64,000 nt of DNA from Tupaia tana (taxonomy: Eukaryota > Chordata > Mammalia > Scandentia > Tupaiidae). Location of the stretch: assembly GCA_026018925.1 (NCBI GenBank), contig JAKSZU010000050.1, positions 930,001 through 994,000 of the forward strand, read 5' to 3'. Each line of letters opens with the position of its first letter. The stretch's first letter is position 1. The notes under the pieces were generated by a model. That model was not told where the DNA came from. It did no database searches and was given only the letters and a program-made list of their open reading frames with translations. The translations under genes and the position numbers were made by a program. This document shows positions 1 through 64,000 of this stretch, in pieces.

Positions 1-168
1 CTAGGGTTAGGGTTAGGTCTATGGTTTGATTTAGGCATCATGTTAAGTTACGTTTGTACTTAGTTTGAGTGAGTAAGTTTAGGGCTACTGTTAGTTTTCG
101 GTTCAGTGTTACGGTTAGAGTAAGCGTGAGGGTCAGTTTAGGGTTCGAGTTGAGCATAAGGTGTCCGC
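1..168 (+). repeat. Representative satellite monomer
   Basis: This first monomer shows the plan shared by the rest. The first third is telomere-like, with TTAGGG at 7-12 and a TTAGGT derivative after it. The middle holds the CTACTGTTAG block and the CpG-bearing TTCGGTTC and TTACGG motifs. The last third is G-rich and ends in GTGTCCGCC at 161-169, the most C-rich and least telomere-like part. In a phase starting at base 1, the consensus divides into 28 hexamers, many of them one or two changes from TTAGGG. The window starting exactly on the chosen boundary is a coincidence of the phase used. Confidence 0.9.
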
Positions 169-3100
169 CTAGAGTTAGGGTTAGGTCTGTGGTTTGAGTT
201 AGGTTTCAGGTTAGGATAGGTTTGAACTTAGTTTGAGGGAGTAAATTTAGGGGTACTCTTAGTTTTCGGTCCAGTGTTACGGTTGGAGATAGCGTCAGGG
301 TAGGTTAGGGTTGGGGTTGAGCTTCAGGTGTCTGCCTAGGGTTAGGGTTAGGTCTATGGTTTGATTTAGGCTTCAGGTTAGGTTAGGTTTGAACTTAGTT
401 TGAGGGAGTAAGTTTAGGGCTACTGTTAGTTTTTGGTTAACTTTTACAATTGGAATAAGCGTCAGGGTCAGGTTAGGTTTGGGGTTGAGCTTAAGGTTTC
501 TGCCTAGGGTTAGGGTTAGGTCTGTGGTTTGAGTTAGGCTTCAGGTTAGGATAGGTTAGAACTTATTTTGAGGAGTAAATTTAGGGGTACGGTTAGTTTC
601 GGTTCAGTGTTATGGTTGGATATAGCATCAGGGTCAGGTTACGGTTGAGGATGCGCTTCAGGTGTCCACCTAGGTTTAGGGTTAGGTCTAAGGTTTGAGT
701 TAGGCTTCAGGTTAGGTTAGGTTTGAACTTAGTTTGAGGGAGTAAGGTTAGGGCTACTCTTAGTTTTCGGATCAGTGTTACGATTGGAGTTAGCATGAGG
801 GCAGGTTAGGGTTGGGGTTGAGCTTAAGGTGTCTTCCTAGGGTTAGGGTTAGGTCTATGATTTGATTTAGGCTTCAGGTTAGGTTAGGTTTGAACTTAGT
901 TTGAGGGAGTCAGTTTAGGGCTACTGTGAGTTTTCGCTTAACTGTTACGGTTGGAGTAAGCGTCAGGGTCAGGTTAGATTTGGGGTTGAGCTTAAGGTGT
1001 CCGCCTAGGGTTAGGGTTAGGTGTATGGTGTGATTTAGGCTTCAGGTTAGGTTAGGTTTGAACTTAGTTTGAGGGAGTAAGTTTAGGGCTACTGTTAGTT
1101 TTCGTTTAACTGTTACGGTTGGAGTAAGCGTCAGTGTCAGGTTAGGGTGGGGGTTAAACATAAGGTGTCCGCCTAGGGTTAGGGTTAGGTCTATGGTTTC
1201 ATTTAGGCTTCAGGTTAGGTTAGGATTGAACTTAGTTTGAGGGAGTAAGTTTAGGGCTACTGTTAGTTTTCGTTTCAGTGTTACGGTTGGATTTAGCCTC
1301 AGGGTCAGGTTAGGGTTGGGGTTAAGCTTAAGGTGTCCGCCGAGGGATAGGGTTAGGTGTATGGTTTGATTTAGGCTTCAGGTTAGGTTAGGTTTGAACT
1401 TAGTTTGAGGGAGTAAGTTTAGAGCTACTGTTAGTTTTCGGGAAACTGTTACTGTTGGAGTTAGCGTGAGGGCCAGGTTAGGGTTGGGGTTGAGATTAAG
1501 GTGTCCACCTAGGGTTAGGGTTAGGTGTATGGTTTGATTTAGGCTTTAGGTTAGGTTAGGTTTGAAGTTAGTTTGAGGGAGTAACTTTAGGGCTACTGTT
1601 AGTTTTCGGTTAACTGTTACGGTTGGAGTAAGCGTCACGGTCAGGTAAGGGTGGGGCTTAAGCATAAGGTGTCCGCCTAGGGTTAGGGTTAGGTCTATGG
1701 TTTCATTTACGCTTCAGGTTAGGTTAGGTTTGAACTTAGTTTGAGGGGGTACGTTTAGGGCTACTGTTAGTTTTCGGTTCAGTGTTACGGTTGGAGATAG
1801 CGTCATGGTCAAGTTTGGGTTGGGGTTGAGATTCAGGTGTCCGCCTAGGGTTAGGATTAGGTCTATGCTTTGAGTTAGGCTTCAGGTTAGGTTAGGTTTG
1901 AACTTAGTTTGAGGGAGTAAGTTTAGGCCTATTGTATTTTTCGGTTCAGTGTTACGGTTGAATTTACCCTCAGGGTCAGGTTAGGGTTGGGGTCACGCTT
2001 AAGGTGTCCGCCTAGGGTTAGGGTTAGGTCTATTGTTTGAGTTAGGCTTCAGGTTAGGTTAGGTTTGAACTTAGTTTGAGGGAGTAAGTTTAGGGCTACT
2101 GTTAGTTTTCGGTTCAGTGTTACGGTTGGAGTTAGAGTGAGGGTCAGGTTAGGGTTGGGTTGAGCTTAAGGTGTCTGCCTAGGGTAAGGGTTAGGTCTAT
2201 GGTTTGAATTAGGCTTCAGGTTAGGTTAGGTTTGAACTTAGTTTGAGGGAGTAAGTTTAGGGCTACTGTTAGTTTTCGGGTAACTGTTACTGTTGGAGTT
2301 AGCGTCAGGTCCAGGTTAGGTTTGGTGTTGAGCTTAAGGTGTCCGCCTAGGGTTAGGGTTATGTGTATGGTTTGATTTAGGCTTCAGCTTAGGTTAGGTT
2401 TGAACTTAGTTTGAGGGAGTAAGTTTAGGGCTACTGTTAGTTTTCGTTTAACTGTTACGGTTGGAATAAGCGTCAGGGTCAGGTTAGGGTGGGGGTTAAG
2501 CATAAGGTGTCCGCCTAGGGTTAGGGTTAGGTCTATGGTTTCATTTAGGCTTCAGGTTAGGTTAGGATTGAACTTAGTTTGAGGGAGTAAGTTTAGGGCT
2601 ACTGTTAGTTTTCGGTTCAGTGTTACGGTTGGAGTTAGCGTGAGGGTCAGGTTAGGTTTGGGGTTGAGGTTAAGGTGTCCGCCTAGGGTTAGGGTTATGT
2701 CTGTGGATAGAGTTAGTCTTCACGTTAGGTTAGGTTTGAACTTAGTTTGAAGGTGTTAGTTTAGGGTTACTGTTAGTTTTCGGTTCAGCGTTACGGTTGG
2801 AGAGAGAGTCATGGTCAAGTTAGGGTTGGGATTAAGATTCAGGTGTCCGCCTAGGGTTAGGGTTAGGTCAATGGTTTGAGTTAGGCTTCAGGTTAGGTTA
2901 GGTTTGAACTTAGTTTGAGTTAGTAAGTTTAGGCCTATTTTATTTTTCGGTTCAGTGATAAGCTTGAATTTAGCCTCAGGGTCAGGTTAGGGTTGGGGTT
3001 AAGCTTAAGGTGTCCGCCTAGGGTTAGGGTTAGGTCTGTGGTTTGAGTTAGGCTTCAGGTTAGGTTAGGTTTGAACTTAGTTTGAGAGAGTAAGTTTAGG

Positions 3101-3869
3101 GCTACTCTTAGTTTTCAGGTAACTGTTACGATTGAAGTTGGCGTCAGGGCCAGGTTATGTTTGGGGTTGAGCTTAAGGTGTCCGCCTGGGGTTACGGTTA
3201 GGTGTATGGTTCGATTTAGGCTTCAGGTTAGGTTAGGTTTGAACTTAGTTTGAGGGAGTAAGTTTAGGGCTACTGTTAGTTTTCTGTTCAGTATTATGGT
3301 TGGAGTTAGCCTCAGGGTCTGGTTAGGTTTGGGGTTGAGCTTAAGGTGTCCGCGTAGTGTTAGGGTTAGGTGTATGGTTTGATTTAGTCTTCAGGTTAGG
3401 TTAGGATTGAACTTAGTTTGAGGGTGTAAGTTTAGGGCTACTGTTAGTTTTTCGGGTAACTGTTACAGTTGGAATTAGCGTCAAGGCCAGTTTAGGGTTG
3501 AGGTTGAGCTTAAGGTGTCCGCCTAGGGTTAGGGTTAGGTGTATGGTTTGATTTAGGCTTCAGGTTAGGTTGGGTTTGAAGTTAGTTTGAGGGAGTAAGT
3601 TTAGGGCTACTGTTAGTTTTCGTTTAACTGTTACGGTTGGAGAAAGCGTCAGGGTCAGGTTAGGGTATGGGATAAGAATAAGGTGTCCGTCTAGGGTTAG
3701 GGTTAGGTCTATGATTTGATTTAGGCTTCAGGTTAGGTTAGCTTTGAACTTGGTTTGAGGGAGTCAGTTTAGGGCTTCTGTTAGTTTTCTGTTCAGTATT
3801 ATGGTTGGAGTTAGCGTCAGGGTCAGGTTAGGGTTGGGGTTGAGCTTAAGTTGTCCGCCTAGGGATAGG

Positions 3870-4200
3870 GTTAGGTCTGTGGTTTGAGTTAGGCTTCAGG
3901 TTAGATTAGGATTGAACTTAGTTTGCGGGAGTAAGTTTAGGGCTACTCTTAGTTTTCGGGTAACAGTTACTGTTGGAGTTAGTGTCAGGGCCATGTTAGG
4001 GTTGGGGTTGAGTTTAAGGTGTCCGCCTAGGGTTAGGGTTAGGTCTATGGTTTCATTTAGGCTTCAGGTAAGGTTAGGATTGAACTTAGTTCGAGGGAGT
4101 AAGTTTAGGGCTACTGGTAGTTTTCGGTTCAGTGTTACAGTTGGAGATAGCGTCAGGGTCAGGTTATGGTTGGGGTTGAGCTTCAGGTGTCCGCCTAGGG
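3870..4200 (+). repeat. Three-monomer cassette, copy 1 of 4
   Basis: The monomers carry in order: CGGGTAAC with TTACTGTTGG and TTAGTGTCAGG; then a TTTCATTT monomer with the unusual TTCAGGTAAGG and CTACTGGTAG or CTACTGGTAGT; then GGAGATAGCG with GGTTATGGTTGGGG. The same combination is found near 5886-6216, 8930-9201 and 10047-10377. The anchor TTCAGGTAAGG moves by 2016 bp (12 monomers), then 2985 bp (18 monomers less 39 bp). The total from copy 1 to copy 4 is 6177 bp (37 monomers less 39 bp). The missing 39 bp is the deletion at 8899-9027. Confidence 0.8.
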
Positions 4201-4889
4201 TTAGGGATAGGTCTATGGTTTGAGTTAGGCTTCAGGTTAGGTTAGGTTTGAACTTAGTTTGAGGGAGTAAGTTTAGGGCTACTGTTAGTTTTCGGTTCAG
4301 TGTTATGGTGGGACTTAGCGTGAGGGTCAAGTTAGGGTTGGGGTTTAGCTTAAGGTGTCCGCCTAGGGTTAGGGTTAGGTGTATGGTTTCATTTAGGCTT
4401 CAGGTTAGGTTAGGTTTGAACTTAGTTTGAGGGAGTAAGTTTTGGGCTACTGTTAGTTTTCGGTTAACTGTTACAGTTGGAGTAAGCGTCAGGGTAAGGT
4501 TAGGTTTGGGGTTGAAGTTAAGGTGTCCGCCTAGGGTTAGGGTTAGGTGTATGGTTTGATTTAGGCTTCAGGTTAGGTTAGGTTTGAACTTAGTTTGAGG
4601 GAGTAAGTTTAGGGCTACTGTTAGTTTTCGGTTCAGTATTATGGTTGGAGTTAGCGTCAGGGTCAGGTTAGGTTTGGAGTTGAGCTTAAGGTGTCCGCCT
4701 AGGGTTAGCGTTAGGTCTGTGGTTTGATTTAGGCTTCAGGTTAGGTTACGTTTCAACTTAGTTTGAGTGAGTAAGTTTAGGGCTACTGTTAGTTTTCGGT
4801 TCAGTGTTACGGTTGTAGATAGCGTCAGGGTCAGGTTAGGGTTGGGGTTGAGCTTCAGTTGTCCGCCTATTGTTAGGGTTAGGTCTATG

Positions 4890-5877
4890 ATTTGAGTTAG
4901 GCTTCAGGTTAGGTTAGGTTTGAACTTAGTTTGAGCGAGTAAGTTTAGGGCTACTCTGAGTTTTCGGTTCACTGATATGGTTGGAGTTAGCCTGGAGTTC
5001 AGGTTAGGGTTGGGGTTCAGCTTAAGGTGTCCGCCTAGGGTTAGGGTTAGGTGTATGGTTTGATTTAGACTTCAGGTTATGTTAGGTTTGAACTTAGTTT
5101 GAGGGAGTAAGTTTAGGACTACTGTTAGTTTTCGGGAAACTGTTATGGTTGCAGTTAGCGTCAGGGCCAGGTTAGGGTTGGGGTTGAGATTAAGGTGTCC
5201 ACCTAGGGTTTGGTTTAGGTGTATGGTTTGATTTAGGCTTCAGGTTATGTTAGGGTTTAAGTTAGTTTGAGGGAGTAAGTTTAGGGTTACTCTTAGCTTT
5301 CGGTTAACTGTTACAGTTGGAGTAAGCATCAGGGTCAGAGTAGGGTGGGGGTTAAGCATAAGGTGTCCGCCTAGGGTTAGGGTTAGGTCTACGATTTGAT
5401 TTAGGCTTCAGGTTAGGTTAAGATTGAACTTAGTTTGAGGGAGTCAGTTTAGGGCTACTGTTAGTTTTCGGTTAACTGTTACGGTTGGAGTAAGCGTCGG
5501 GGTCAGGTTAGGTTTGGGGTTGAGCTTAAGGTGTCCGCCTAGGGTTAGGGTTAGGTCTATGGTTTCATTTAGGCTTCAGGTTAGGTTAGGTTTGAACTTA
5601 GTTTGAGGGAGTAAGTTTAGGGCTACTGTTAGTTTTCGGTTGAGTGTTACGGTTGGATTTAGCCTCAGGGTCAGGTTAGGGTTGGGGTTAAGCTTCAGGT
5701 GTCCGCCTAGGGTTAGGGTTAGGTCTATTGTTTGAGTTAGGCTTCAGGTTAGGTTAGGTTTGAACTTAGTTTGAGTGAGTAAGTTTAGGGCTACAGTTAA
5801 TTTTTGGTTCAGTGTTACGTTTGGTGTTAGCGTGAGGGTCCGGTTAGGGTTGGGGTTGAGCTTAAGGTGTCCGCCTA
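4890..5877 (+). repeat. 12-monomer-offset duplication, left copy
   Basis: This segment of nearly six monomers recurs at 6906-7893 with an offset of exactly 2016 bp (12 x 168). It carries rare markers found in both copies, such as CTCTGAGTTTTCGG, TTCACTGATATGG and CCTGGAGTTCAGG. I noticed one difference inside the pair (CGTCAGGGCC here, CGTCATGGCC in the other copy). Similarity ends at about 5877, where this copy reads CCGCCTATGG. Confidence 0.9.
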
Positions 5878-6905
5878 TGGTTAGGGTTAGGTCTGTGGTT
5901 TGAGTTAGACTTCAGGTTAGGTTAGGTTTGAACTTAGTTTGAGGGAGTAAGTTTAGGTCTACTCTTAGTTTACGGGTAACTGTTACTGTTGGAGTTAGTG
6001 TCAGGGCCAGGTTAGGGTGGGGGTTGAGCTTAAGGTGTCCGCCTAGGGTTTGGGTTAGGTTTATGGTTTCATTTAGGCTTCAGGTAAGGTTAGGATTGAA
6101 CTTAGTTTCAGGGAGAAAGTTTAGGGCTACTGGTAGTATTCGGTTCAGTGTTACGGTTGGAGATAGCGTCAGGGTCAGATTATGGTTGGGGTTGAGCTTC
6201 AGGTGTCCGCCTAGAGTTAGGGTTAGGTCTATGGTTTGAGTTAGGCATCAGGTTAGGTTAGGTTTGAACTTAGTTTGAGGGTGTAAGTTTAGGGTTACTG
6301 TTAATTTTCGGTTCAGTGTTACGGCTGGACTTAGCGTGAGGGTCAGGTTAGGGTTGGGGTTGAGCTTAAGGTGTCCGCCTAGGGTTAGGGTTAGGTGTAT
6401 GGTTTGATTTACGCCTCAGGTTAGGTTATGTTTGAACTTAGTTTGAGAGAGTCAGTTTAGGGCTACTGTTAGTTTTCGGGTAACTGTTACGATTGGAGTT
6501 AGCGTCAGGGCCAGGTTATGTTTGGGGTTGAGCTTAAGGTGTCCGCCTAGGGTTAGGGTTAGGTGTATTGTTCGATTTAGGCTTCAGGTTAGATTAGGTT
6601 TGAACTTAGTTTGAGGGAGTAAGTTTAGTGCTACTGTTAGTTTTCGGGAAACTGTTACGGTTGGAGTTAACGTCAGGGCCAGGTTAGGGTTGGGGTTGAG
6701 CTTAAGGTGTCCGCCTAGGGTTAGGGTTAGGTGTATGTTTTGATTTAGGCTTCAGGTTAGGTTAGGTTTGAACTTAGTTTGAGGGAGTAAGTTTAGGGCT
6801 ACTGTTAGTTTTCGGTTAAGTGTTACGGTTGGAGTAAGCGTCAGGGTCAGGTTATGGTTGGGGTTGAGCTTCAGGTGTCCGCCTAGGGTTAGGGTTAGGT
6901 CTATG

Positions 6906-7893
6906 GTTTGAGTTAGGCTTCAGGTTAGGTTAGGTTTGAACTTAGTTTGAGCGAGTAAGTTTAGGGCTACTCTGAGTTTTCGGTTCACTGATATGGTTGG
7001 AGTTAGCCTGGAGTTCAGGTTAGGGTTGGGGTTCAGCTTAAGGTGTCCGCCTAGGGTTAGGGTTAGGTGTATGGTTTGATTTAGACTTCAGGTTATGTTA
7101 GGTTTGAACTTAGTTTGAGGGAGTAAGTTTAGGACTACTGTTAGTTTTCGGGAAACTGTTATGGTTGCAGTTAGCGTCATGGCCAGGTTAGGGTTGGGGT
7201 TGAGATTAAGGTGTCCACCTAGGGTTTGGTTTAGGTGTATGGTTTGATTTAGGCTTCAGGTTATGTTAGGGTTTAAGTTAGTTTGAGGGAGTAAGTTTAG
7301 GGTTACTCTTAGCTTTCGGTTAACTGTTACAGTTGGAGTAAGCATCAGGGTCAGAGTAGGGTGGGGGTTAAGCATAAGGTGTCCGCCTAGGGTTAGGGTT
7401 AGGTCTACGATTTGATTTAGGCTTCAGGTTAGGTTAAGATTGAACTTAGTTTGAGGGAGTCAGTTTAGGGCTACTGTTAGTTTTCGGTTAACTGTTACGG
7501 TTGGAGTAAGCGTCGGGGTCAGGTTAGGTTTGGGGTTGAGCTTAAGGTGTCCGCCTAGGGTTAGGGTTAGGTCTATGGTTTCATTTAGGCTTCAGGTTAG
7601 GTTAGGTTTGAACTTAGTTTGAGGGAGTAAGTTTAGGGCTACTGTTAGTTTTCGGTTGAGTGTTACGGTTGGATTTAGCCTCAGGGTCAGGTTAGGGTTG
7701 GGGTTAAGCTTCAGGTGTCCGCCTAGGGTTAGGGTTAGGTCTATTGTTTGAGTTAGGCTTCAGGTTAGGTTAGGTTTGAACTTAGTTTGAGTGAGTAAGT
7801 TTAGGGCTACAGTTAATTTTTGGTTCAGTGTTACGTTTGGTGTTAGCGTGAGGGTCCGGTTAGGGTTGGGGTTGAGCTTAAGGTGTCCGCCTA
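6906..7893 (+). repeat. 12-monomer-offset duplication, right copy
   Basis: This is the near-identical partner of 4890-5877. The flanks show how it joined. The sequence just left of it (6717-6905) and its first bases continue at 7893-8116 as a second copy, offset by 1176 bp (7 x 168). The block therefore looks inserted or converted into the middle of a pre-existing run, with the run resuming on its other side. Confidence 0.88.
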
Positions 7894-8116
7894 GGGTTAG
7901 GGTTAGGTGTATGTTTTGATTTAGGCTTCAGGTTAGGTTAGGTTTGAACTTAGTTTGAGGGAGTAAGTTTAGGGCTACTGTTAGTTTTCGGTTAAGTGTT
8001 ACGGTTGGAGTAAGCGTCAGGGTCAGGTTATGGTTGGGGTTGAGCTTCAGGTGTCCGCCTAGGGTTAGGGTTAGGTCTATGGTTTGAGTTAGGCTTCAGG
8101 TTAGGTTAGGTTTGAA
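7879..8116 (+). repeat. 7-monomer-offset duplication of 6703-6940
   Basis: Both copies carry the unusual TGTATGTTTTGATT, then GGTTAAGTGTTACGG, GGAGTAAGCG and GGTTATGGTTGGGG in the same order. The offset is 1176 bp, seven monomers. They diverge at about 6950 and 8126, where one reads GAGCGAG and the other GAGGGAG. Confidence 0.85.
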
Positions 8117-8898
8117 CTTAGTTTGAGGGAGTAAGTTTAGGGCTACTGTTAGTTTTCGGGAAACTGTTACGGTTGGAATTAGCGTCAGGACAAGGTTAGG
8201 TTTGGGGTTGAGCTTAAGGTGTCCGCCTAGGGTTAGGGTTAGGTGTGTGGTTTGATTTAGGCTTCAGGTTAGGTTAGGTTTGAACTTAGTTTGAGGGAGT
8301 AAGTTTAGGGCTACTGTTAGTTTTCGGTTCAGTGTTATGGTTGGAGTTAGCGTGAGGGTCAGGTTAGGGTTGGGGTTGAGCTTAAGGTGACCGCCTAGGG
8401 TTAGGGTTAGGTCTGTTGTTTGAGTTAGACTTCAGGTTAGGTTAGGTTTGAACTTAGTTTGAAGGAGTAAGTTTAGAGCTACTGTTAGTTTTCGGTTCAG
8501 TGTTACGGTTGGAGATAGCGTCAGGGTCAAGTTAGGGTTGGGGTTGACATTCAAGTGTCCGCCTAGGGTTAGGGTTATGTCTATGGTTTGAGTTAGTCTT
8601 CAGGTAAGGTTAGGATTGAACTTAGTTTGAGAGAGTAAGTTTAGGGCTACAGTTAGTTTTCGGTTCAGTGTTACGGTTGTACTTAGCGTGAGGGTCAGGT
8701 TAGGGTTGGGGTGGAGCTTAAGCTGTCCGCCTAGAGTTAGCGTTAGGTCTATGGTTTGAGTTAGGCTTCAGGTTAGGTTAGGTTTGAACTTAGTTTGAGG
8801 GAGTAAGTTTAGGGCTACCGTTAGTTTTCGGTTAACTGTTACGGTTGGAGTAAGCGTCAGGGTCAGGTTAGGGTTGGGGTTAAGCTTAAGGTGTCCGC

Positions 8899-9027
8899 CT
8901 AGGGTTAGGGTTAGGTCTATTGTTTGAGTTAGTAAGTTTAGGGCTACTCTTAGTTTTCGGGTAACTGTTACTGTTGGAGTTAGTGTCAGGTCCAGGTTAG
9001 GTTTGGGGTTGAGCTTAAGGTGTCCGC
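8899..9027 (+). repeat. Short 129-bp monomer with a 39-bp internal deletion
   Basis: The boundary-to-boundary distance is 129 bp instead of 168. The sequence passes from TTTGAGTTAG straight to TAAGTTTAGGG at about 8930. The 39 bp that normally lie between, holding the TTCAGGTTAGG and TGAACTTAG blocks, are missing. The left part matches the GTCTATTG subtype. The right part matches the CGGGTAAC/TTACTG subtype of the three-monomer cassette. The junction therefore looks like a short-homology deletion or an out-of-register join between two subtypes. Confidence 0.9.
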
Positions 9028-10046
9028 CAAGGGTTTGGGTTAGGTCTATGGTTTCATTTAGGCTTCAGGTAAGGTTAGGATTGAACTTAGTTTCATGGAG
9101 AAAGTTTAGGGCTACTGGTAGTTTTCGGTTCAGTGTTACGGTTGGAGATAGCGTCAGGGTCAGGTTATGGTTGGGGTTGAGCTTCAGGTGTCCGCCTAGA
9201 GTTAGGGTTAGGTGTATGGTTTGATTTAGGCTTCAGGTAAGGTTAGGATTGAACTTAGTTTGAGGGAGTAAGTTTAGGGCTACTGTTAGTTTTCGGGTAA
9301 CTGTTAGGATTGGAGTTAGCGTCAGGGCCAGGTTATGGTTGGGGTTGAGCTTAAGGTGTCCGCCTAGGGTTACGGTTAGGTGTATGGTTTGATTTAGGCT
9401 TCAGGTTAGGTTATGTTTGAACTTAGTTTGAGGGAGTAAGTTTAGGGCTACTGTTATTTTTCGGTTAACTGTTACGGTTGGAGTAAACATCAGGGTCAGG
9501 TTAGGTTTGGGGTTGAGCTTAAGGTGTCCGCTTAGGGTTAGCGTTAGATGTATGGTTTGAGTTAGGCTTCAGGTTAGGTTAGGTTTGAACTTAGTTTGAG
9601 GGTGTAAGTTTAGGGCTACTGTTAGTTTTTCGGGTAACTGATACCGTTGGAATTAGCGTCAGGCCCTGGTTAGTGTTGGGGTAGAGCTTAAGGTGTCCGC
9701 GTAGGGTTAGGGTTAGGTGTATGGCTTGATTTAGGCTTCAGGTTAGGTTATGGTTGAACTTAGTTTGAGGGAGTAAGTTTAGGGCTACTGTTAGTTTTCG
9801 GTTAACTGTTACAGTTGGAGTAAGCATCAGGGTCAGGTTAGGTTTGGGTTGAAGTTAAGGTGTCCGCCTAGGGTTAGGGTTAGTTGTATGGTTTGATTTA
9901 GGCTTCAGCTTAGGTTAGGTTTGAACATAGTTTGACGGAGTAAGTTTAGGGCTACTGATAGTTTTTGGTTCAGTGTTACGTTTGGAGTTAGCGTGAGGGT
10001 CCGGTTAGGGTTGGGGTTGAGCTTAAGGTGTCCGCCTAGGGTTAGG

Positions 10047-10377
10047 GTTAGGTCTGTGGTTTGAGTGAGGCTTCAGGTTAGGTTAGGTTTGAACTTAGTT
10101 TGAGGGAGTAAGTTTAGGGCTACTCTTAGTTTTCGGGTAACTGTTACTGTTGGAGTTAGTGTCAGGGCCAGGTTAGGGTTGGGGTTGAGCTTACGGTGTC
10201 CCCCTAGGGTTAGGGTTAGGTCTATGGTTTCATTTAGGCTTCAGGTAAGGTTAGGATTGAACTTAGTTTGAGGGAGTAAGTTTAGGGCTACTGGTAGTTT
10301 TCGGTTCAGTGTTACAGTTGGAGATAGCGTCAGGGTCAGGTTATGGTTGGGGTTGAGCTTCAGGTATCCGCCTAGTG
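10047..10377 (+). repeat. Three-monomer cassette, copy 4 of 4
   Basis: It has the same order of subtype markers as 3870-4200: CGGGTAAC with TTACTG, TTTCATTT with TTCAGGTAAGG and CTGGTAG, then GGAGATAGCG with GGTTATGG. Copies 1 and 4 resemble each other more than copies 2 and 3. Copies 2 and 3 share GGGTTTGGGTTAGG and GAGAAAGTTTAGG. Confidence 0.75.
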
Positions 10378-12950: not shown

Positions 12951-12966
12951 AGTTTCAGGAAGTTTA
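12951..12966 (+). repeat. Diagnostic 4-bp-short variant of the monomer centre
   Basis: The usual centre, TTTGAGGGAGTAAGTTT, is replaced by TTTCAGGAAGTTT, which is four bases shorter. The same variant is found at 30407-30422, 37453-37468 and 50709-50724. The single origin is inferred from the shared compound change. It marks one monomer lineage spread over 38 kb. Confidence 0.85.
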
Positions 12967-30735: not shown

Positions 30736-30795
30736 CTTAGTTTGAGGGAGTAAGTTTAGGCCTATTGTATTTTTCTGTTCAGTGTTACCGTTGGA

Positions 30796-39235: not shown

Positions 39236-39274
39236 TAGGGTTAGGGTTAGGTCCATGGTTTGATTTAGGCTTCA

Positions 39275-49700: not shown

Positions 49701-50212
49701 AGTTTGAGCGAGTAAGTTTAGGGCTACTCTTAGTTTTCGGTTCAGTGATATGGTTGGAGTTAGCCTGGAGGTCAGGTTAGGGTTGGGATTGAGCTTATGG
49801 TGTCCGCCTAGGGTTAGGGTGAGGTGTATGGTTTGATTTAGGCTTCAGGTTAGTTTAGGTTTGAACTTAGTTTGAGGGAGTAAGTTTAAGGCTACTGTTA
49901 GTTTTCGGGAAACTGTTACGGTTGGAGTTAGCGTCAGGGCCAGGTTTGGGTTGGGGTTAAGCATAAGGTGTCCGCCTAGGGTTAGGGTTAGGTCTATGAT
50001 TTGATTTAGGCTTCAGGTTAGGTTAGGTTTGAAATTAGTTTGAGGGAGTCAGTTTAGGGCTACTGTTATTTTTCGGTTAACTGTTACGGTTGGATTAAGC
50101 GTCAGGGTCAGGTTAGGTTTGGGGTTGAGCTTAAGGTGTCCGCCTAGGGTTAGAGTTAGGTGTATGGTTTGATTTAGGCTTCAGGTTAGGTTAGGTTTGA
50201 ACTTAGTTTGAG
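46746..50212 (+). repeat. 4196-bp higher-order unit, second copy (partial)
   Basis: It repeats 42550-46016 at a constant offset of 4196 bp with very few differences, for example TTTTCAGTTTAG near 48230 against TTTTCGGTTTAG near 44034. It stops at about 50212, where GAGGGAG replaces GAGGCAG. The last 0.7 kb of the first unit, including the 5-monomer copy, is absent. Confidence 0.92.
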
Positions 50213-53200: not shown

Positions 53201-53699
53201 AGGTTAGGTTAGGTTTGAACTTAGTTTGAGGGAGACAGTTTAGTGCTACTGTTAGTTTTCGTTTAACTGTTACGGTTGGAGTAAGCGTCAGGGTCAGGTT
53301 AAGGTGGAGGTTAAGCATAAGTTGTCCGCCTATGGTTAGGGTTATTTCTATGGTTTCATTTAGGCTTCAGGTTAGGTTAGGATTGAACTTAGTTTGACGA
53401 GTAAGTTTAGGGCTACTGTTAGTTTTCGGTTCAATGTTACGTTTGGAGTTAGTGTGAGGGTCCGGTTAGGGTTGGGGTTGAGCTTAAGGTGTCGGCCTAG
53501 GGTTCGGTTTAGGTCTGTGGTTTGAGATAGGCTTCAGATTAGGTTAAGTTTGAACTTAGTTTGAGGGAGTAAATTTAGTGCTACTGTTAATTTTCGGTTC
53601 AGTGTTACGGTTGGAGATAGCGTCAGGGTCAGGTTAGGGTTGGGGTTGAGCTTCAGGTGTCCGCCTAGGGTTAGGGTTAGGTCTATGGTTTGAGTTAGG
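50213..53699 (+). repeat. Satellite monomers without a long near-identical copy
   Basis: About 21 monomers of several subtypes. Short blocks resemble 16500-16900 (TTACATTTGGAG, GTGTCCGG) and 30360-30740 (the 4-bp-short centre at 50709 and nine G at 50784). The segment 51180-51480 resembles 28872-29130. I found no copy longer than about 1 kb. No gene is present. Confidence 0.8.
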
Positions 53700-54576
53700 C
53701 TTCAGGTTAGGTTAGGTTTGAACTTAGTATGAGCGAGTAGGTTTAGGGCTACTCTTAGTTTTCGGTTCAGTGATATGGTTGGAGTTAGCCTGGAGGTCAG
53801 GTTAGGTTTGGGGTTGAGCTTAAGGTGTCCGCCTAGGGTTAGGGTTAGGTCTATGGTTTCATTTAGGCTTCAGGTTAGGTTAGGATTGAACCTAGTTTGA
53901 GGGACTAAGTTTAGGGCTACTGTTAGTTTTCGGTTCAGTGTTATGGTTGGAGATAGCGTCAGGGTCAAGTTAGGGTTGGGGTTGAGATTCAGGTGTCCGC
54001 CTATGGCTAGGGTTAGGTCTATGGTTTGAGTTAGGCTTCAGGTTAGGTTAGGTTTGAACTTAGTTTGACGGAGTAAGTTTAGGCCTATTGTATTTTTCGG
54101 TTCAGTGTTACGGTTGGTTTTAGCCTCAGGGTTGGTTAGGGTTGGGGTTAAGCTTAAGGTGTCCACCTAGGGTTAGGGTTAGGTGTATGGTTTGATTTAG
54201 GCTTCAGGTTAGGTTCGGTTTGAACTTAGTTTGAGGGAGTAAGTTTAGGGCTACTGTTAGTTTTCGTTTAAGTGTTACGGTTGGAGTAAGCGTCAGGGTT
54301 AGGTTAGGGTGGGGGTTAAGCATAAGGTGTCCGCCTAGGGTTAGGGTTAGGTCTATGGTTTGAGTTAGGCTTCAGGTTAGGTTAGGTTTGAACTTAGTCT
54401 GAGGGAGTAAAATTAGGGCTACGGTTAGTTTTCGGTTCAGTGTTACGGTTGGAGTTAGCGTGAGGGTCTGGTTAGGGTTGGGGTTGAGCTTAAGGTGTCC
54501 GCCTAGGGTTAGGGTTAAGGGTATGGTTTGATTTTGGCTTCTGGTTAGGTTAGGTTTGAACTTAGTTTGAGGGAGT
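53700..54576 (+). repeat. Block copied from the 48334-49210 type
   Basis: The offset is 5366 bp (32 monomers less 10 bp). Shared markers are TTAGTATGAGCG, TGAACCTAG, TTTGACGGAG, CAGGGTTGGTTAGG and AAAATTAGGG. At about 54570 this copy changes to two monomers with TTCTGGTAAC and GGTTTCCACC. Those resemble 21700-21800 instead, and the earlier type then resumes with TTTTCCGTTCAG. Confidence 0.83.
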
Positions 54577-57500
54577 AAGTTTAGGGCTACTGTTAGTTTT
54601 CTGGTAACTGTTACAGTTGGAGTTAGCGTCAGGGTCAGGTTAGGGTTGGGGTTGAGCTTAAGGTTTCCACCTAGTGTTAGGGTTAGGTGTATGGTTTGAT
54701 TTAGGCTTCAGGTTAGGTTAGGTTTGAACTTAGTTTGAGGGAGTAAGTTTAGGGCTACTGTTAGTTTTCCGTTCAGTATTATGGTTGGAGTTAGCGTCAG
54801 GGTCAGGTTAGGGTTGGGGTTAGCTTGAGGTGTCCGCCTCTGGTTAGGGTTAGGTCCATGGTTTGATTTAGGCTCCAGGTTAGGTTACGTTTGAACTTAG
54901 TTTGAGTGAGTAAGTTTAGGGCTACTGTTAGTTTTCGGTTCAGTGTTACGGTTGGAGATAGCGTCAGGGTCAGGTTAGGGTTGGGGTTGAGCTTCAGGTG
55001 TCCGCCTATTGTTAGGGTTAGGTCTATGATTTGAGTTAGGCTTCAAGTTAGGTTATGTTTGAACTTAGTTTGAGCGAGTAAGTTTAGGGCTACTCTTAGT
55101 TTTCGGTTCAGTGATATGTTTGGAGTTAGCCTGGAGGTCAGGTTAGGGTTGGGGTTGAGCTTAAGCTGTCCTCCTAGGGTTAGGGTTATGTGTATGTTTT
55201 GACATAGGCTTCAGGTGAGGTTAGGTTTGAACTTAGTTTGAGGGAGTAAGTTTAGGGCTACTGTTAGTTTTCGTTTAACTGTTACGGTTGGAGTAAGCGT
55301 CAGGGTCAGGTTAGGTTGGGGGTTAAGCATGAGGTGTCCACCTAGGGTAAGGGTTAGGTCTATGGTTTCATTTAGGCTTCAGGTTAGGTTAGGTTTGAAC
55401 TTAGTTTGAGGGAGTAAGTTTAGGGCTACTGTTAGTTTTCGGTTCAGTGTTACGGTTGGAGTTAGCGTGAGGGTCAGGTTAGTGTTGGGTTTGAACTTCA
55501 GGTGTCCGCCTAGGGTTAGGGTTAGGTCTATGGTTTGAGTTAGGCTTCAGGTTAGGTTAGGTTTGAACTTAGTCTGAGGGAGTAAAATTAGGCCTACTGT
55601 TATTTTTCGGTTCAGTGTTACGGTTGGAGTTAGCGTGAGGGTCAGGTTAGGGTTGGGGTTGGGCTTAAGGTGTCCGCCTAGGGTTAGGGTTAGGTGTATG
55701 GTTTGATTTAGGCTTCAGGTTAGGTTAGGTTTGAACTTAGTTTGAGGGAGTAAGTTTAGGGCTACTGTTAGTTTTCGGGAAACTGTTACGGTTGGAGTTA
55801 GCCTCAGGGCCAGGTTAGGGTTGGGGTTGAGCTTCAGGTGTCCGCCTAGGGTAAGGGTTAGGTCTATGTTTGAGTTAGGCTTCAGGTTAGGTTAGGTTTG
55901 AAGTTAGTTTGTGGGAGTAAGTTCAGGGCTACTGTTAGTTTTCGGTTAACTGTTACAGTTGGACTAAGCGTCAGGGTCAGGTTAGGGTGGGGGTTAAGCA
56001 TAAGGTTTCCGCCTAGGGTTAGGGTTAGGTCTATGGTTTCATTTAGGCTTCAGGTTAGGTTAGGATTGAACTTAGTTTGAGGGAGTAAGTTTAGGGCTAC
56101 TGTTAGTTTTCGGTTCAGTGTTCCGGTTGGATTTAGCCTCATGGTCAGGTTAGGGTTGGGGTTAAGCTTAAGGTGTCCGCCTAGTGTTAGGGTTAGGTGT
56201 ATGGTTTCATTTAGGCTTCAGGTTAGGTTAGGATTGAATTTAGTTTGAGGGAGTAAGTTTAGGGCTACTGTTAGTTTTCGGTTCAGTGTTACGGTTGGAG
56301 ATAGCGTCAGGGTCAAGTTAGGGTTGGGGTTGAGATTCAGGTGTCCGCCTAGGGCTAGGGTTAGGTCTATATTTGAGTTAGGCTTCAGGTTAGGTTAGGT
56401 TTGAACTTAGTTTGAGGGAGTAAGTTTAGGCCTATTGTATTTTTCTGTTCAGTGTTACCGTTGGATTTAGCCTCACGGTCAGGTTAGGGTTGGGGTTAAG
56501 CTTAAGGTGTCCGCCTAGGGTTAGGTTTAGGTGTATGGTTTGATTTAGGCTTCAGGTTAGGTTAGGTTTAAACTTAGTTTGAGGGAGTAAGTTTAGGGCT
56601 ACTGTTAGTTTTCGTTTAAGTGTTACGGTTGGAGTAAGCGTCAGGGTTAGGTTAGGGTGGGGGTTAAGCATAAGGTGTCCGCCTAGGGTTAGGGTTAGGT
56701 CTATGGTTTCATTTAGGCTTTAGGTTAGGTTAGGATTGAACTTAGTTTGAGGGAGTAAGTTTAGGGCTACTGTTAGTTTTCGGTTCAGTGTTACGGTTGG
56801 AGTTAGCGTGAGGGTTAGGTTAGTGTTGGGTTTGAACTTCAGGTGTCCGCCTAGGGATAGGGTTAGGTCTATGGTTTGAGTTAGGCTTCAGGTTAGGTTA
56901 GGTTTGAACTTAGTCTGAGGGAGTAAGTTTAGGGCTACTGTTAGTTTTCGGTTCAGTGTTACGGTTGGAGTTAGCGTGAGGGTCAGGTTAGTGTTGGGTT
57001 TGAACTTCAGGTGTCCGCCTAGTTTTAGGTTTAGGTGTATGGTTTGATTTAGGCTTCAGGTTAGGTTAGGTTTGAACTTAGTTTGAGGGAGTAAGTTTAG
57101 GGCTACTGTTAATTTTCGTTTAACTGTTACGGTTGGAGTAAGCGTCAGGGTTAGGTTATGGTGGGGTTTAAGCATAAGGTGTCCGCCTAGGTTTAGTGTT
57201 AGGACTATGGTTTCATTTAGGCTTCAGGTTAGGTTAGGATTGAACTTAGTTTGAGGGAGTAAGTTTAGGGCTACTGTTAGTTTTCGGTTCAGTGTTATGG
57301 TTGGATTTAACCTCAGGGTCAGGTTAGGGTTGGGGTTAAGCTTAAGGTGTCCGCCTAGGGTTAGGGTTAGGTCTATTGTTTGATTTAGGCTTCAGGTTAG
57401 GTTAGGTTTGAACTTAGTTTGAGGGAGTAAGTTTAGGGCTACTGTTAGTTTTTGGTTCAGTGTTACATTTGGAGTTAGCGTGAGTGTCCGGTTAGGGTTG

Positions 57501-57856
57501 GGGTTGAGCTGAAGGGGTCCGCCTAGGGTTAGGGTTAGGTCTGTGGTTTGAGATAGGCTTCATGTTAGGTTAGGTTTGAACTTAGTTTGAGGAAGTAAGT
57601 TTAGGGCTACTGTTAGTTTTCTGGTAACTATTACGGTTGGAGTTAGCGTCAGGGACAGGTTAGGGTTGGGGTTGAGCTTAAGGTTTCCGCCTAGTGTTAG
57701 TGTTAGGTGTATGGTTTGATTTAGGCTTCAGGTTAGGTTAGGTATGAACTTAGTTTGAGGGAGTAAGTTTAGGGCTACTGTTATTTTTCGGTTCAGTATT
57801 ATGGTTGGAGTTAGCGTCAGGGTCAGGTTAGGGTTGGGGTTAGCTTGAGGTGTCCG
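54577..57856 (+). repeat. Patchwork of blocks from several upstream types
   Basis: From left to right: two monomers of the 21.7-kb type; 54878-56232, the partner of 39275-40629; 56230-56775, matching 30560-31105 (offset 25670 bp, with CTATTGTATTTTTC and GTTACCGTTGG); about 57010-57560, matching 43422-43972 (offset 13588 bp, CCTAGTTTTAGG); about 57580-57720, like 34435-34560 (GAGGAAG, GGTAACTATTACGG); then a monomer matching 40590-40745. No gene is present. Confidence 0.8.
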
Positions 57857-60800
57857 CCTCTGGTTAGGGTTAGGTCCATGGTTTGATTTAGGCTCCAGGT
57901 TAGGTTACGTTTGAACTTAGTTTGAGTGAGTAAGTTTAGGACTACTGTTAGTTTTCGGTTCAGTGTTACGGTTGGAGATAGCGTCAGGGTAAGGTTAGGG
58001 TTGGGGTTGTGCTTCAGGTGTCCACCTAGGGTTAGGGTTAGGTCTCTGGTTTGATTTAGGCTTCAGGTTAGGTTACGTTTGAACTTAGTTTGAGTGAGTA
58101 AGTGTAGGGCTACTGTTAGTTTTCGGTTTAGTGTTACGGTTGGAGATAGCGTCAGGGTCAGGTTAGGTTTGGGGTTGAGCTTCAGGTGTCCGACTATTGT
58201 TAGGGTTAGGTCTATGATTTGAGTTAGGCTTCAGGTTAGGTTAGGTTTGAACTCAGTTTGAGCGAGTAAGTTTAGGGCTACTCTTAGTTTTCGGTTTAGT
58301 GATATGGTTGGAGTTAGCCTGGAGGTCAGGTTAGGGTTGGGGTTGAGCTTAAGGTGTCCGCCTAGGGTTAGGGTTAGGTGTATGGTTTGATTTAGGCTTC
58401 AGGTTAGGTTAGGTTTGAACTTAGTTTGAGGGAGTAAGTTTAGGGCTACTCTTAGTTTTCGGGAAACTGTTACGGTTGGAGTTAGCGTCAGGGCCAGGAT
58501 AGGGTTGCGGTTGAGATTCAGGTGTCCGCCTAGTGTTAGGGTTAGGTGTATGGTTTGATTTAGGATTCAGGTTAGGTTAGGTTTGAAGTTAGTTTGAGGG
58601 AGTAAGTTTAGGGCTACTGTTAGTTTTCTGTTAACTGTTACAGTTGGAGTAAGCGTCAGGGTCAGGGTAGGGTGGGGGTTAAGCATAAGGTGTCCGCCTA
58701 TCGTTAGGGTTAGGTCTATGATTTGATTTAGGCTTCAGGTTAGGTTAGGTTTGAACTTAGTTTGAGGGAGTCAGTTTAGGGCTACTGTTAGTTTTCGGGT
58801 AACTGTTACTGTTGGAGTAAGCGTCAGGGTCTGGTTAGGTTTGGGGTTGAGCTTAAGGTGTCCGCCTAGGGTTAGGGTTAGGTGTATGGTTTGATTTAGG
58901 CTTCAGGTTATGTTAGGTTTGCACTTAGTTTGAGGGAGTAATTTTAGGGCTACTGTTAGTTTTCGTTTAACTGTTACGGTTGGAGTAAGCGTCAGGGTCA
59001 GGTTAGGGTGGGGGTTAAGCATAAGGTGTCCGCCTAGGGTTAGGGTTAGGTCTATGGTTTCATTTTGGCTTCAGGTTAGGTTAGGATTGAACTTAGTTTG
59101 AGGGAGTAAGTTTAGGGCTACTGTTAGTTTTCGGTTCAGTGTTACGTTTGGAGTTAGCGTGAGGGTCCTTTTAGGGTTTGTGTTGAGCTTAAGGTGTCCG
59201 CCTAGGGTTAGGGTTAGGTCTGTGGTTTGAGTTAGGCTTCAGGTTAGGTTAGGTTTGAACTTAGTTTGAGGGAGTAAGTTTAGGGCTACTGTTAGTTTTC
59301 GGCTCAGTGTTACGGTGGGAGTTAGCGTGAGGGTCAGGTTAGGGTTGGGTTTGAACTTCCGGTGTCCGCCTAGGGTTAGGGTTAGGTGTATGGTTTGATT
59401 TAGGCTTCAGGTTAGGTTAGGTTTGAACTTAGTTTGAGGCAGTAAGTTTAGGGCTACTGTTAGTTTTCGGTTAAGTGTTACGGTTGGAGTAAGCGTCAGG
59501 GTCAGGTTAGGTTTGGGGTTGAGCTTAAGGTGTCCGCCTAGGGTTAGGGTTAGGTGTACGGTTTGATTTAGGCTTCAGGTTAGGTTAGGTTTGAACTTAG
59601 TTTGAGGGAGCAAGTTTAGGGCTACTGTTAGTTTTCGGTTCAGTGTTACGGTTGGAGATAGCGTCAGGGTCAGGTTAGGGTTGGGTTTGAGCTTCAGGTG
59701 TCCGCCTAGTGTTAGGGTTAGGTGTATGGTTTGATTTAGGCTTCAGGTTAGGTTAGGTTTGAAGTTAGTTTGAGGGAGTAAGTTTAGGGCTACTGTTAGT
59801 TTTCGGTTCAGTATTATGGTTTGAGTTAGCGTCAGGGTCAGGTTAGGGTTGGGGTTAGCTTGAGGTGTCCGCCTAGGGTTAGGGTTAGGTCCATGGTTTG
59901 ATTTAGGCTCCTGGTTAGGTTTGGTTTGAACTTAGTTTGAGTGAGTAAGTTTAGGGCTACTGTTAGTTTTCGGTTCAGTGTTACGGTTGGAGATAGCGTC
60001 AGGGTCAGGTTAGCGTTGGAGTGTAGCTTAAGGTGTCCGCCTAGGGTTAGGGTTAGGTCCGTGGTTTGATTTAGGCTCCAGGTTAGGTTACGTTTGAACT
60101 TAGTTTGAGTGAGTAAGTTTAGGACTATTGTTAGTTTTCGGTTCAGTGTTACGGTTGGAGATAGCGTCAGGGTCAGGTTAGGGTTGGGGTTGAGCTTCAG
60201 GTGTCCGCCTAGGGTTAGGGTTAGGTCTCTGGTTTGATTTAGGCTTCAGGTTAGGTTACGTTTGAACTTAGTTTGAGTGAGTAAGTTTAGGGCTACTGTT
60301 AGTTTTCGGTTTAGTGTTACGGTTGGAGATAGCGTCAGGGTCAGGTTAGGGTTGGGTTTGAACTTCAGGTGTCCGCCTAGTTTTAGGGTTAGGTGTATGG
60401 TTTGTTTTAGGCTTCAGGTTAGGTTAGGTTTGAACTTAGTTTGAGGGAGTAAGTTTAGGGCTACTGTTAATTTTCGTTTAACTGTTACGGTTGGAGTAAG
60501 CGTCAGGGTTAGGTTATGGTGGGGTTTAAGCATAAGGTGTCCGCCTAGGTTTAGGGTTAGGACTATGGTTTCATTTAGGCTTCAGGTTAGGTTAGGATTG
60601 AACTTAGTTTGAGGGAGTAAGTTTAGGGCTACTGTTAGTTTTCGGTTCAGTGTTATGGTTGGATTTAACCTCAGGGTCAGGTTAGGGTTGGGGTTAAGCT
60701 TAAGGTGTCCGCCTAGGGTTAGGGTTAGGTCTATTGTTTGATTTAGGCTTCAGGTTAGGTTAGGTTTGAACTTAGTTTGAGGGAGTAAGTTTAGGGCTAC

Positions 60801-61382
60801 TGTTAGTTTTTGGTTCAGTGTTACATTTGGAGTTAGCGTGAGTGTCCGGTTAGGGTTGGGGTTGAGCTGAAGGTGTCCGCCTAGGGTTAGGGTTAGGTCT
60901 GTGGTTTGAGATAGGCTTCAGGTTAGGTTAGGTTTGAACTTAGTTTGAGTGAGTAAGTTTATGGCTACTGTTAGTTTTCGGTTTAGTGTTACGGTTGGAG
61001 ATTGCGTCAGGGTCAGGTTAGGGTTGGGGTTGAGCTTCAGGTGTCCGCCTATTGTTAGTGTTAGGTCTATGATTTGAGTTAGGCTTCAGGTTAGGTTAGG
61101 TTTGAACTTAGTATGAGCGAGTAGGTTTAGGGCTACTCTTAGTTTTCGGTTCAGTGATATGGTTGGAGTTAGCCTGGAGGTCAGGTTAGGGTTGGGGTTG
61201 AGCTTAAGGTGTCCGCCTAGGGTTAGGGTTAGGTCTATGGTTTCATTTAGGCTTCAGGTTAGGTTAGGATTGAACCTAGTTTGAGGGACTAAGTTTAGGG
61301 CTACTGTTAGTTTTCGGTTCAGTGTTATGGTTGGAGTTAGCGTCAGGGTCAGGTTAGGGTTGGGGTTAGCTTGAGGTGTCCG
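57857..61382 (+). repeat. 3526-bp higher-order unit, first tandem copy (21 monomers)
   Basis: It runs from CCTCTGGTTA at 57857 to the next CCTCTGGTTA at 61383. Inside are the CCTATCGTTA, GTCCTTTTAGGG, AACTTCCGGTG, GGAGCAAG, TTAGCGTTGGAG and CCTAGTTTTAGG markers in the same order as at 40911-44390. The unit ends by passing from a TGAACCTAG monomer into GGAGTTAGCG and GGTTAGCTTGAGG, the junction with the next copy. Confidence 0.92.
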
Positions 61383-64000
61383 CCTCTGGTTAGGGTTAGG
61401 TCCATGGTTTGATTTAGGCTCCAGGTTAGGTTACGTTTGAACTTAGTTTGAGTGAGTAAGTTTAGGACTACTGTTAGTTTTCGGTTCAGTGTTACGGTTG
61501 GAGATAGCGTCAGGGTAAGGTTAGGGTTGGGGTTGTGCTTCAGGTGTCCACCTAGGGTTAGGGTTAGGTCTCTGGTTTGATTTAGGCTTCAGGTTAGGTT
61601 ACGTTTGAACTTAGTTTGAGTGAGTAAGTGTAGGGCTACTGTTAGTTTTCGGTTTAGTGTTACGGTTGGAGATAGCGTCAGGGTCAGGTTAGGTTTGGGG
61701 TTGAGCTTCAGGTGTCCGACTATTGTTAGGGTTAGGTCTATGATTTGAGTTAGGCTTCAGGTTAGGTTAGGTTTGAACTCAGTTTGAGCGAGTAAGTTTA
61801 GGGCTACTCTTAGTTTTCGGTTCAGTGATATGGTTGGAGTTAGCCTGGAGGTCAGGTTAGGGTTGGGGTTGAGCTTAAGGTGTCCGCCTAGGGTTAGGGT
61901 TAGGTGTATGGTTTGATTTAGGCTTCAGGTTAGGTTAGGTTTGAACTTAGTTTGAGGGAGTAAGTTTAGGGCTACTCTTAGTTTTCGGGAAACTGTTACG
62001 GTTGGAGTTAGCGTCAGGGCCAGGATAGGGTTGCGGTTGAGATTCAGGTGTCCGCCTAGTGTTAGGGTTAGGTGTATGGTTTGATTTAGGATTCAGGTTA
62101 GGTTAGGTTTGAAGTTAGTTTGAGGGAGTAAGTTTAGGGCTACTGTTAGTTTTCTGTTAACTGTTACAGTTGGAGTAAGCGTCAGGGTCAGGGTAGGGTG
62201 GGGGTTAAGCATAAGGTGTCCGCCTATCGTTAGGGTTAGGTCTATGATTTGATTTAGGCTTCAGGTTAGGTTAGGTTTGAACTTAGTTTGAGGGAGTCAG
62301 TTTAGGGCTACTGTTAGTTTTCGGGTAACTGTTACTGTTGGAGTAAGCGTCAGGGTCTGGTTAGGTTTGGGGTTGAGCTTAAGGTGTCCGCCTAGGGTTA
62401 GGGTTAGGTGTATGGTTTGATTTAGGCTTCAGGTTATGTTAGGTTTGCACTTAGTTTGAGGGAGTAAGTTTAGGGCTACTGTTAGTTTTCGTTTAACTGT
62501 TACGGTTGGAGTAAGCGTCAGGGTCAGGTTAGGGTGGGGGTTAAGCATAAGTTGTCCGCCTAGGGTTAGGGTTAGGTCTATGGTTTCATTTTGGCTTCAG
62601 GTTAGGTTAGGATTGAACTTAGTTTGAGGGAGTAAGTTTAGGGCTACTGTTAGTTTTCGGTTCAGTGTTACGTTTGGAGTTAGCGTGAGGGTCCTTTTAG
62701 GGTTGGTGTTGAGCTTAAGGTGTCCGCCTAGGGTTAGGGTTAGGTCTGTGGTTTGAGTTAGGCTTCAGGTTAGGTTAGGTTTGAACTTAGTTTGAGGGAG
62801 TAAGTTTAGGGCTACTGTTAGTTTTCGGCTCAGTGTTACGGTGGGAGTTAGCGTGAGGGTCAGGTTAGGGTTGGGTTTGAACTTCCGGTGTCCGCCTAGG
62901 GTTAGGGTTAGGTGTATGGTTTGATTTAGGCTTCAGGTTAGGTTAGGTTTGAACTTAGTTTGAGGCAGTAAGTTTAGGGCTACTGTTAGTTTTCGGTTAA
63001 GTGTTACGGTTGGAGTAAGCGTCAGGGTCAGGTTAGGTTTGGGGTTGAGCTTAAGGTGTCCGCCTAGGGTTAGGGTTAGGTGTACGGTTTGATTTAGGCT
63101 TCAGGTTAGGTTAGGTTTGAACTTAGTTTGAGGGAGCAAGTTTAGGGCTACTGTTAGTTTTCGGTTCAGTGTTACGGTTGGAGATAGCGTCAGGGTCAGG
63201 TTAGGGTTGGGTTTGAGCTTCAGGTGTCCGCCTAGTGTTAGGGTTAGGTGTATGGTTTGATTTAGGCTTCAGGTTAGGTTAGGTTTGAAGTTAGTTTGAG
63301 GGAGTAAGTTTAGGGCTACTGTTAGTTTTCGGTTCAGTATTATGGTTTGAGTTAGCGTCAGGGTCAGGTTAGGGTTGGGGTTAGCTTGAGGTGTCCGCCT
63401 AGGGTTAGGGTTAGGTCCATGGTTTGATTTAGGCTCCTGGTTAGGTTTGGTTTGAACTTAGTTTGAGTGAGTAAGTTTAGGGCTACTGTTAGTTTTCGGT
63501 TCAGTGTTACGGTTGGAGATAGCGTCAGGGTCAGGTTAGCGTTGGAGTGTAGCTTAAGGTGTCCGCCTAGGGTTAGGGTTAGGTCCGTGGTTTGATTTAG
63601 GCTCCAGGTTAGGTTACGTTTGAACTTAGTTTGAGTGAGTAAGTTTAGGACTATTGTTAGTTTTCGGTTCAGTGTTACGGTTGGAGATAGCGTCAGGGTC
63701 AGGTTAGGGTTGGGGTTGAGCTTCAGGTGTCCGCCTAGGGTTAGGGTTAGGTCTATGGTTTCATTTAGGCTTCAGGTTAGGTTACGTTTGAACTTAGTTT
63801 GAGTGAGTAAGTTTAGGGCTACTGTTAGTTTTCGGTTTAGAGTTACGGTTGGAGATAGCGTCAGGGTCAGGTTAGGGTTGGGTTTGAACTTCAGGTGTCC
63901 GCCTAGTTTTAGGGTTAGGTGTATGGTTTGTTTTAGGCTTCAGGTTAGGTTAGGTTTGAACTTAGTTTGAGGGAGTAAGTTTAGGGCTACTGTTAATTTT
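61383..64000 (+). repeat. 3526-bp higher-order unit, second tandem copy, cut by window end
   Basis: It repeats 57857-60474 at a 3526-bp offset. I noticed roughly eight single-base differences over 2.6 kb, for example AAGTTGTCC near 62550 against AAGGTGTCC near 59025, and GTCTATGGTTTCATTT near 63750 against GTCTCTGGTTTGATTT near 60223. It and its left junction also match 40741-43528. If the unit is complete, it would end about 900 bp beyond the window. Confidence 0.9.

Follow-up and report, generated by a model that had tools for sequence, protein, structure and literature searches.

The 64-kb window, meaning the whole stretch of DNA that was analysed, very probably consists of a satellite that descends from the vertebrate telomere repeat, lies at least partly at chromosome ends and passed through three successive stages (types I, II and III) before it was amplified. 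If so, bulk satellite DNA can arise from telomere DNA in a mammal. Satellite birth is seldom observed, since rapid replacement makes the parent sequences vanish. Here the parent sequence (TTAGGG) is known exactly, so that a direction can be assigned to the substitutions and slips that led to a satellite of nucleosome-length units and tens of megabases. With three stages in one genome, satellite birth, the formation of a doublet and the binding of shelterin to decaying telomere DNA become directly testable.

The array and its match to the telomere repeat

The window is taken from positions 930,001–994,000 of contig C653 (1.47 Mb), in an assembly of 2.95 Gb and 1198 contigs. Globin exons show that the genome belongs to a placental mammal; a tRNA-like SINE raised the weaker suspicion of a colugo, on which a karyotype paper (PMC2386441) and a second paper (PMC9141288) are not decisive. 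A single 168-bp unit fills it head-to-tail from position 1 to position 64,000, the + strand being G-rich. TRF gives a period of 168 across 1–8932 and 8922–64,000, and monomer-by-monomer alignment resolves 382 monomers, whose mean identity to the consensus is 0.935; of these, 326 measure exactly 168 bp. The first monomer (1–168, + strand) opens at the CTAGGG boundary that starts the column numbering 1–168, and the last (63,903–64,000, + strand) is truncated by the window edge. Both methods place the sole large internal register break of the window at a short monomer of 129 bp (8899–9027, + strand). Positions 1–17 (+ strand) are telomere-like; this block reads CTAGGGTTAGGGTTAGG in the consensus and includes two YTAGGGTTR sites that overlap, and 305 of 380 monomers preserve its core, TAGGGTTAGGGTTAGG, unaltered. 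Six additional sampled places on the same contig carry this satellite too, in unchanged orientation.

The window is 45 % GC and strongly G/T-rich (GC skew about 0.54), and its self identity is 0.48 at period 6 against 0.81 at period 168. The repeat unit of the array is 168 bp, not the (TTAGGG)n hexamer, and the array is not a heterochromatic ITS. No regular higher-order repeat was found in the window, where identity is nearly flat over monomer lags 1–119 (mean 0.893; best lag 38, 0.905). Of 380 window monomers, 73 % are at least 98 % identical to another monomer of the window. Best partners most often lie 38 monomers apart (59/380), and near-identical partners with this commonest spacing point to irregular segmental duplication. 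Outside the window, at C337:264418–269119 and C708:521720–524087, the satellite shows a higher-order spacing of 2334 bp, an expanded TTAGGG stretch recurring at each interval. Variation among window monomers is transversion-rich, with a ti/tv of 0.45 for 1332 rare differences and 0.72 for 74 singletons. The relic units described below give 0.70, a value that alignment slips may inflate, and non-CpG sites in 8 SINE copies of the same genome give 1.2 (88 differences) for comparison.

The first-pass annotation had read the consensus as 28 hexamers in the CTAGGG phase and counted by hand about 106 of 168 matches to a TTAGGG array; computed on the consensus, the number is exactly 106, and the five other phases yield 85, 48, 20, 22 and 53. 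The hexamers it named as best preserved (1–3, 6, 8, 14, 19, 21 and 22) each have five or six matches. The dinucleotide-shuffle check that it had proposed was run, every null being scored as the best of six phases: 106 compares with a mean of 64.5 ± 3.9 and a maximum of 85 in 5000 shuffles (z 10.5). Mononucleotide shuffles, scored likewise, give 63.3 ± 3.3. Shuffle means of about 63–64.5 of 168 put the chance level at about 38 %, slightly higher than the one third that had been guessed. Hexamers 9–13 and the last had been described as the most drifted, which holds only in part: allowing two 1-bp deletions and two 1-bp insertions raises the lattice matches of the consensus to 122/168, and part of the apparent drift in hexamers 9–13 and 23–28 is therefore a one-base phase slip.

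When the hexamer is chosen freely in ungapped comparison, TTAGGT is best (109) and TTAGGG reaches 106; in free fits of unit lengths 4–12, only 6 and its multiple 12 stand out. Gapped scoring places TTAGGG at the top among all 4-, 5- and 6-mers and filtered 7-mers (92; next 70), against a null of −54 ± 16.5 with a maximum of −2 in 1000. The unit fits the telomere repeat lattice beyond composition.

Relic arrays and the order of types

One (TTAGGG)6 place led to C231:54.13 Mb, within a contig of 70.6 Mb, where an array of period 168 (11.3 copies, 77 % matches) comes after a long inverted degenerate CCCTAA block. This inverted locus (C231:54127917–54135289) has at least 5.3 kb of degenerate CCCTAA followed by about 1.9 kb in TTAGGG orientation, an order opposite to that of a simple telomere–telomere fusion. 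The relic unit agrees with the window unit at 135 of 168 positions, ungapped, in one of the 28 in-phase registers; the runner-up registers, with 109 and 108, are shifts by 78 and 90. A genome search with a relic 33-mer returned 12 places at 9 loci, all within contigs of at least 44 Mb. All nine loci were read, and the six with a 168-bp period supplied 65 aligned units; the loci at C531 69.07, C864 174.6 and C320 11.39 Mb, mainly of period 6 and in pieces of 22–149 bp, were left out of the unit count.

The pooled relic consensus has 147 of 168 positions on the TTAGGG lattice, and its agreement with the window unit (136) compares with a maximum of 115 in 3000 hexamer-order shuffles, each scored as the best of 28 registers. 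At sites where the two differ, the TTAGGG base is kept by the relic at 26, by the window type at 1 and by neither at 5. Excluding the 33 searched columns, as a guard against bias from a TTAGGG-rich search word, still leaves 19 for the relic against 1 for the window. The pooled relic and the window type have 15 off-lattice states in common, and four other type I loci agree at 161–165 of 168 positions with the relic consensus from the first locus.

The paired slips of the relic consensus occur twice, at a distance of 90 bp (a deletion at 45 and again at 135, an inserted G at 73 and again at 163), and the halves of the relic unit agree at 130/168 positions. A weak trace persists in the modern unit, whose lag-78 identity of 94/168 is reached by 6 of 5000 hexamer-order permutations at lag 78 and, with the best of 13 lags scored, by 97 of 5000. 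Arrays of period 78 (25.4 copies) and period 77 (3.5 copies) occur at C531 156.6 Mb. Judged from these sequences, the 168-bp unit is a doublet in which 15 hexamers (90 bp) are joined to 13 (78 bp), and not a single block of 28. The first-pass annotation had proposed that a stretch of true telomere repeat was frozen as a 168-bp unit, diverged and was then amplified. Telomeric origin, divergence and later amplification are upheld by the ordered relics; the single 28-hexamer freeze is not, since halves that share the same one-base slips 90 bp apart imply that the 28 hexamers were not frozen in one step.

Three types can be distinguished. Type I (C231 54.13 and 56.03, C531 156.6 and 160.0, C642 88.84 Mb) has 147–149 lattice matches and 0 of 26 later changes, type II (C309 58.27 and 99.2, C975 152.2 Mb) has 135–138 matches and 6–7 of the changes, and type III (the window and 8 other stretches) has 121–123 matches and 24–26 of the changes, so that the series has gaps. 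As the 26 sites are differences between the pooled relic and the window, this choice fixes in advance the values of 0 for type I and 26 for the window, and only the type II value is informative; type II was not used on its own to define direction. A second search pattern matched 12 places, of which 10 were read as 10 stretches, 2 of type II and 8 of the modern type. The two type II loci were found by a word containing 2 of the 26 states (columns 1 and 36), and further states common to the three type II loci (columns 58, 88 and 89) lie outside that word.

A tree of 18 locus-consensus rows, rooted with the pure TTAGGG lattice, joins types II and III with support 99 and type III with support 100, and singles out no type II locus as closest to type III. 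In a unit-level tree 25 modern monomers of the window and 9 of C275 form one clade (support 1.0) among the relic units, and type II is not cleanly separated. Identity between units within an array is 0.78–0.89 in types I and II (at most 0.82 in 7 of 8 loci) against 0.875–0.90 in type III, which would fit most relics being older and having ceased to be homogenised. Among window monomers, variant bases show no lean back to TTAGGG (383/1672, against 557 expected at one third). Types I and II look like intermediate forms between telomere repeat and satellite that survive in the same genome.

Chromosome placement, possible function and alternative histories

Arrays lie at or close to the ends of some chromosomes, adjacent to the telomere. 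C275 (86.1 Mb) has a subtelomeric minisatellite followed by nearly 2 kb of degenerate telomere repeats, which run unbroken into the 168-bp array at its first monomer; the final 2 kb of the contig, 312 kb beyond the junction, are again satellite in telomere orientation, the span having been read at its two ends. Intermediates had been predicted beside the telomere of the same chromosome, a prediction that fails at this junction, where the first nine monomers already carry 21–24 of the 26 changes; the intermediates are located in chromosome interiors. C608 starts with a satellite of about 310 bp, carries the 168-bp satellite in 7 of 7 readable stretches from 200 kb on, and has in its last 5.6 kb a pure TTAGGG run (1 kb read), with an N stretch between satellite and run. 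Four of 28 sampled termini, from 14 chromosome-size contigs, are 168-bp satellite, three in telomere orientation and one, the left end of C297, in the opposite orientation. The C608 array and a subterminal array on C753 have telomere orientation, and subterminal arrays on C1086 and C309 the opposite.

Compared by eye, the first 50 bases of the right-end sample of C1086 match, as reverse complement, a part of the minisatellite in the proximal flank of C275 (C275:85781920–85787919). This likeness suggests that some end pieces were placed backwards in the assembly, and scaffold ends may be misplaced in places. A genome search for satellite-to-telomere joins, using GTCCGCCTAGGG followed by three TTAGGG, found 3 places, none of them a telomere join: on reading, two had two extra hexamers inside arrays and the third was a short monomer with extra hexamers. 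Separately, the tandem satellite of about 310 bp was seen at three contig starts (C608:1–2000, C220:1–400 and C753:1–400); it is a candidate centromeric satellite.

The word TTAGGCTTCAGGTTAGGTTA has 241,472 exact occurrences in the assembly. It is carried by 49 % of sampled monomers (59/120), by 61 % in the window and by 73 % at the first 100 places on C33, rates which convert the word count to about 330,000–490,000 monomers, or 55–83 Mb and 1.9–2.8 % of the assembly.

A second tandem repeat, of about 215 bp, was observed in the readable part of C508:9001–13000. Its units are 209–227 bp long with 63 % GC, a CpG observed/expected ratio of 0.68 and (CCCTAA) runs. Read along the TTAGGG strand, the telomere run is preceded by direct repeats of AGGTCAAAGGTCA, 22 of them in 2.5 kb, and CCGGAAGT and CACGTG motifs are also present. 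The AGGTCAAAGGTCAAAGGTCA direct repeats within it are presumably nuclear-receptor motifs, and the whole looks like a promoter-type repeat feeding into telomere DNA. At C309:733337–736372 the 168-bp satellite is interspersed with relatives of this repeat (about 78–88 % identical) and with a telomere-like run of 0.55 kb.

YTAGGGTTR, taken here to be the TRF1/TRF2 site, occurs 2.08 times per monomer in the window, always on one strand. The relic consensus unit has 9 such sites, the modern one 3. The search for selection on TRF-type sites gave no signal: the longest unchanged block is 18 against a null mean of 19.4 (P 0.59), and for conservation columns 1–17 come 42nd among 152 windows. Selection on these sites was rejected on both counts; the loss of sites and the unremarkable block length give no sign that binding sites have been kept by selection.

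Descent from telomere DNA has to be weighed against other accounts of the same data. A G/T-rich satellite could resemble TTAGGG through composition and dinucleotides alone, and the strong G/T richness of the window does lead to an expected baseline of 64/168; however, 0 of 5000 dinucleotide shuffles rise above 85, the gapped score lies far above its null maximum, and relics that share the register and are richer in TTAGGG are present in the genome. Chance resemblance is already refuted by the shuffle test and the relics, and its probability is practically nil. The direction could also be the reverse, the interior type I arrays being old satellite copies converted towards TTAGGG by telomere sequence, so that the satellite would predate its likeness to the telomere. 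The four other loci agree closely with the first, conversion would need to have erased the same 26 states while sparing the same 15, and doublet symmetry is stronger in the relics than in the modern type; even though the first type I array adjoins long degenerate telomere runs, where conversion could occur, this direction is very improbable.

Two further accounts give the satellite or its ancestors an active part at chromosome ends. It is unlikely that the satellite is a working chromosome-end part, whose remaining TRF-type sites or TCAGGG pairs would attract telomere proteins or nuclear receptors and so permit ends to be maintained by recombination: the unchanged block does not exceed the chance length, the sites became fewer from relic to modern unit and the first block is poorly placed in the conservation ranking, against which stand the density of YTAGGGTTR sites on a single strand and 160 occurrences of GTCAGGGTCA in the window. 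Additionally in its favour, TCAGGG variants are described as binding NR2C/F receptors and promoting telomere recombination in ALT cells (PMC6410037). The position of AGGTCAAAGGTCAAAGGTCA upstream of a (TTAGGG) run in the units read of the 215-bp repeat, the interleaving on C309 and the TCAGGGTCAGG pair present in the modern monomer together raise an ALT-like reading, improbable as a history of this lineage, in which telomere DNA was copied with the assistance of nuclear receptors, linked with repeats that bind receptors and carried into subtelomeres and chromosome interiors, where it became a satellite possibly still assisting end recombination.

In the preferred reading, stepwise descent from the telomere repeat, degenerate (TTAGGG)n DNA would first have gained a marked segment of about 78/90 bp. 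Its 90-bp and 78-bp versions would have formed the 168-bp doublet, and short arrays of this doublet would have spread as type I, with about 87 % TTAGGG. One lineage would then have gathered 6–7 of 26 further substitutions (type II), and a descendant with all 26 (type III, as in the window) would have been amplified to arrays of at least a megabase, of which many lie on small contigs and some at the ends of chromosomes. Of this explanation, the parts taken directly from the assembly are the series of sequences, the doublet and the arrays at some chromosome ends. Counting against it are the small share of sampled termini with satellite, the mixed orientations, the possible misplacement of scaffold ends, the lack of graded forms at the C275 junction, the gaps in the series and the variant bases that do not lean towards TTAGGG. 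Amplification would be ordinary satellite growth by unequal exchange and segmental duplication, exchange between repeats being the probable mechanism. Degenerate TTAGGG at human 2q14 is described as binding TRF1 and TRF2 (PMC6410037), and shelterin binding to the satellite may by analogy be possible. The role of the satellite is probably that of inert terminal heterochromatin, terminal at least in part, which spaces the telomere from genes.

Comparison with known systems

The FA-SAT satellite of the cat has a 483-bp unit that contains telomere-like hexamers, and it and the 168-bp satellite are both major mammalian satellites. Compared by description, FA-SAT is GC-rich with a CpG island (PMC6379292), whereas the 168-bp satellite is 45 % GC. 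Telomeric-repeat DNA in satellite amounts is known as het-ITS from the Chinese hamster and others (PMC6410037). As presented in that source, het-ITS are blocks of the telomeric repeat; here, in contrast, a 168-bp unit overwrites the hexamer, is 63 % TTAGGG in phase and has its own subfamily history. The telomere-similar arrays of potato (Tek and Jiang 2004, cited in PMC3276127) are likewise described as megabase tandem arrays from telomere-like sequence, but in a plant and at centromeres.

Degenerate telomere DNA is also described from human subtelomeres (PMC8122249, PMC6410037), and the junction block on C275 is similar. In those accounts, however, the human degenerate TTAGGG stretches separate two subtelomeric domains and are not a fixed-length satellite unit. 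Mouse TLC is described as a tandem satellite between telomere and centromeric satellite (PMC12597820), an arrangement comparable to the order of 310-bp satellite, 168-bp satellite and telomere run on C608. At 6–60 kb per chromosome in the same source, TLC stays, by description, far below the megabases seen here. Among the matches listed from the open-licence literature, no title names a 168-bp TTAGGG-derived mammalian satellite. What sets the present case apart from these known kinds is a nucleosome-length unit that overwrote the hexamer, together with ordered stages in one mammal genome.
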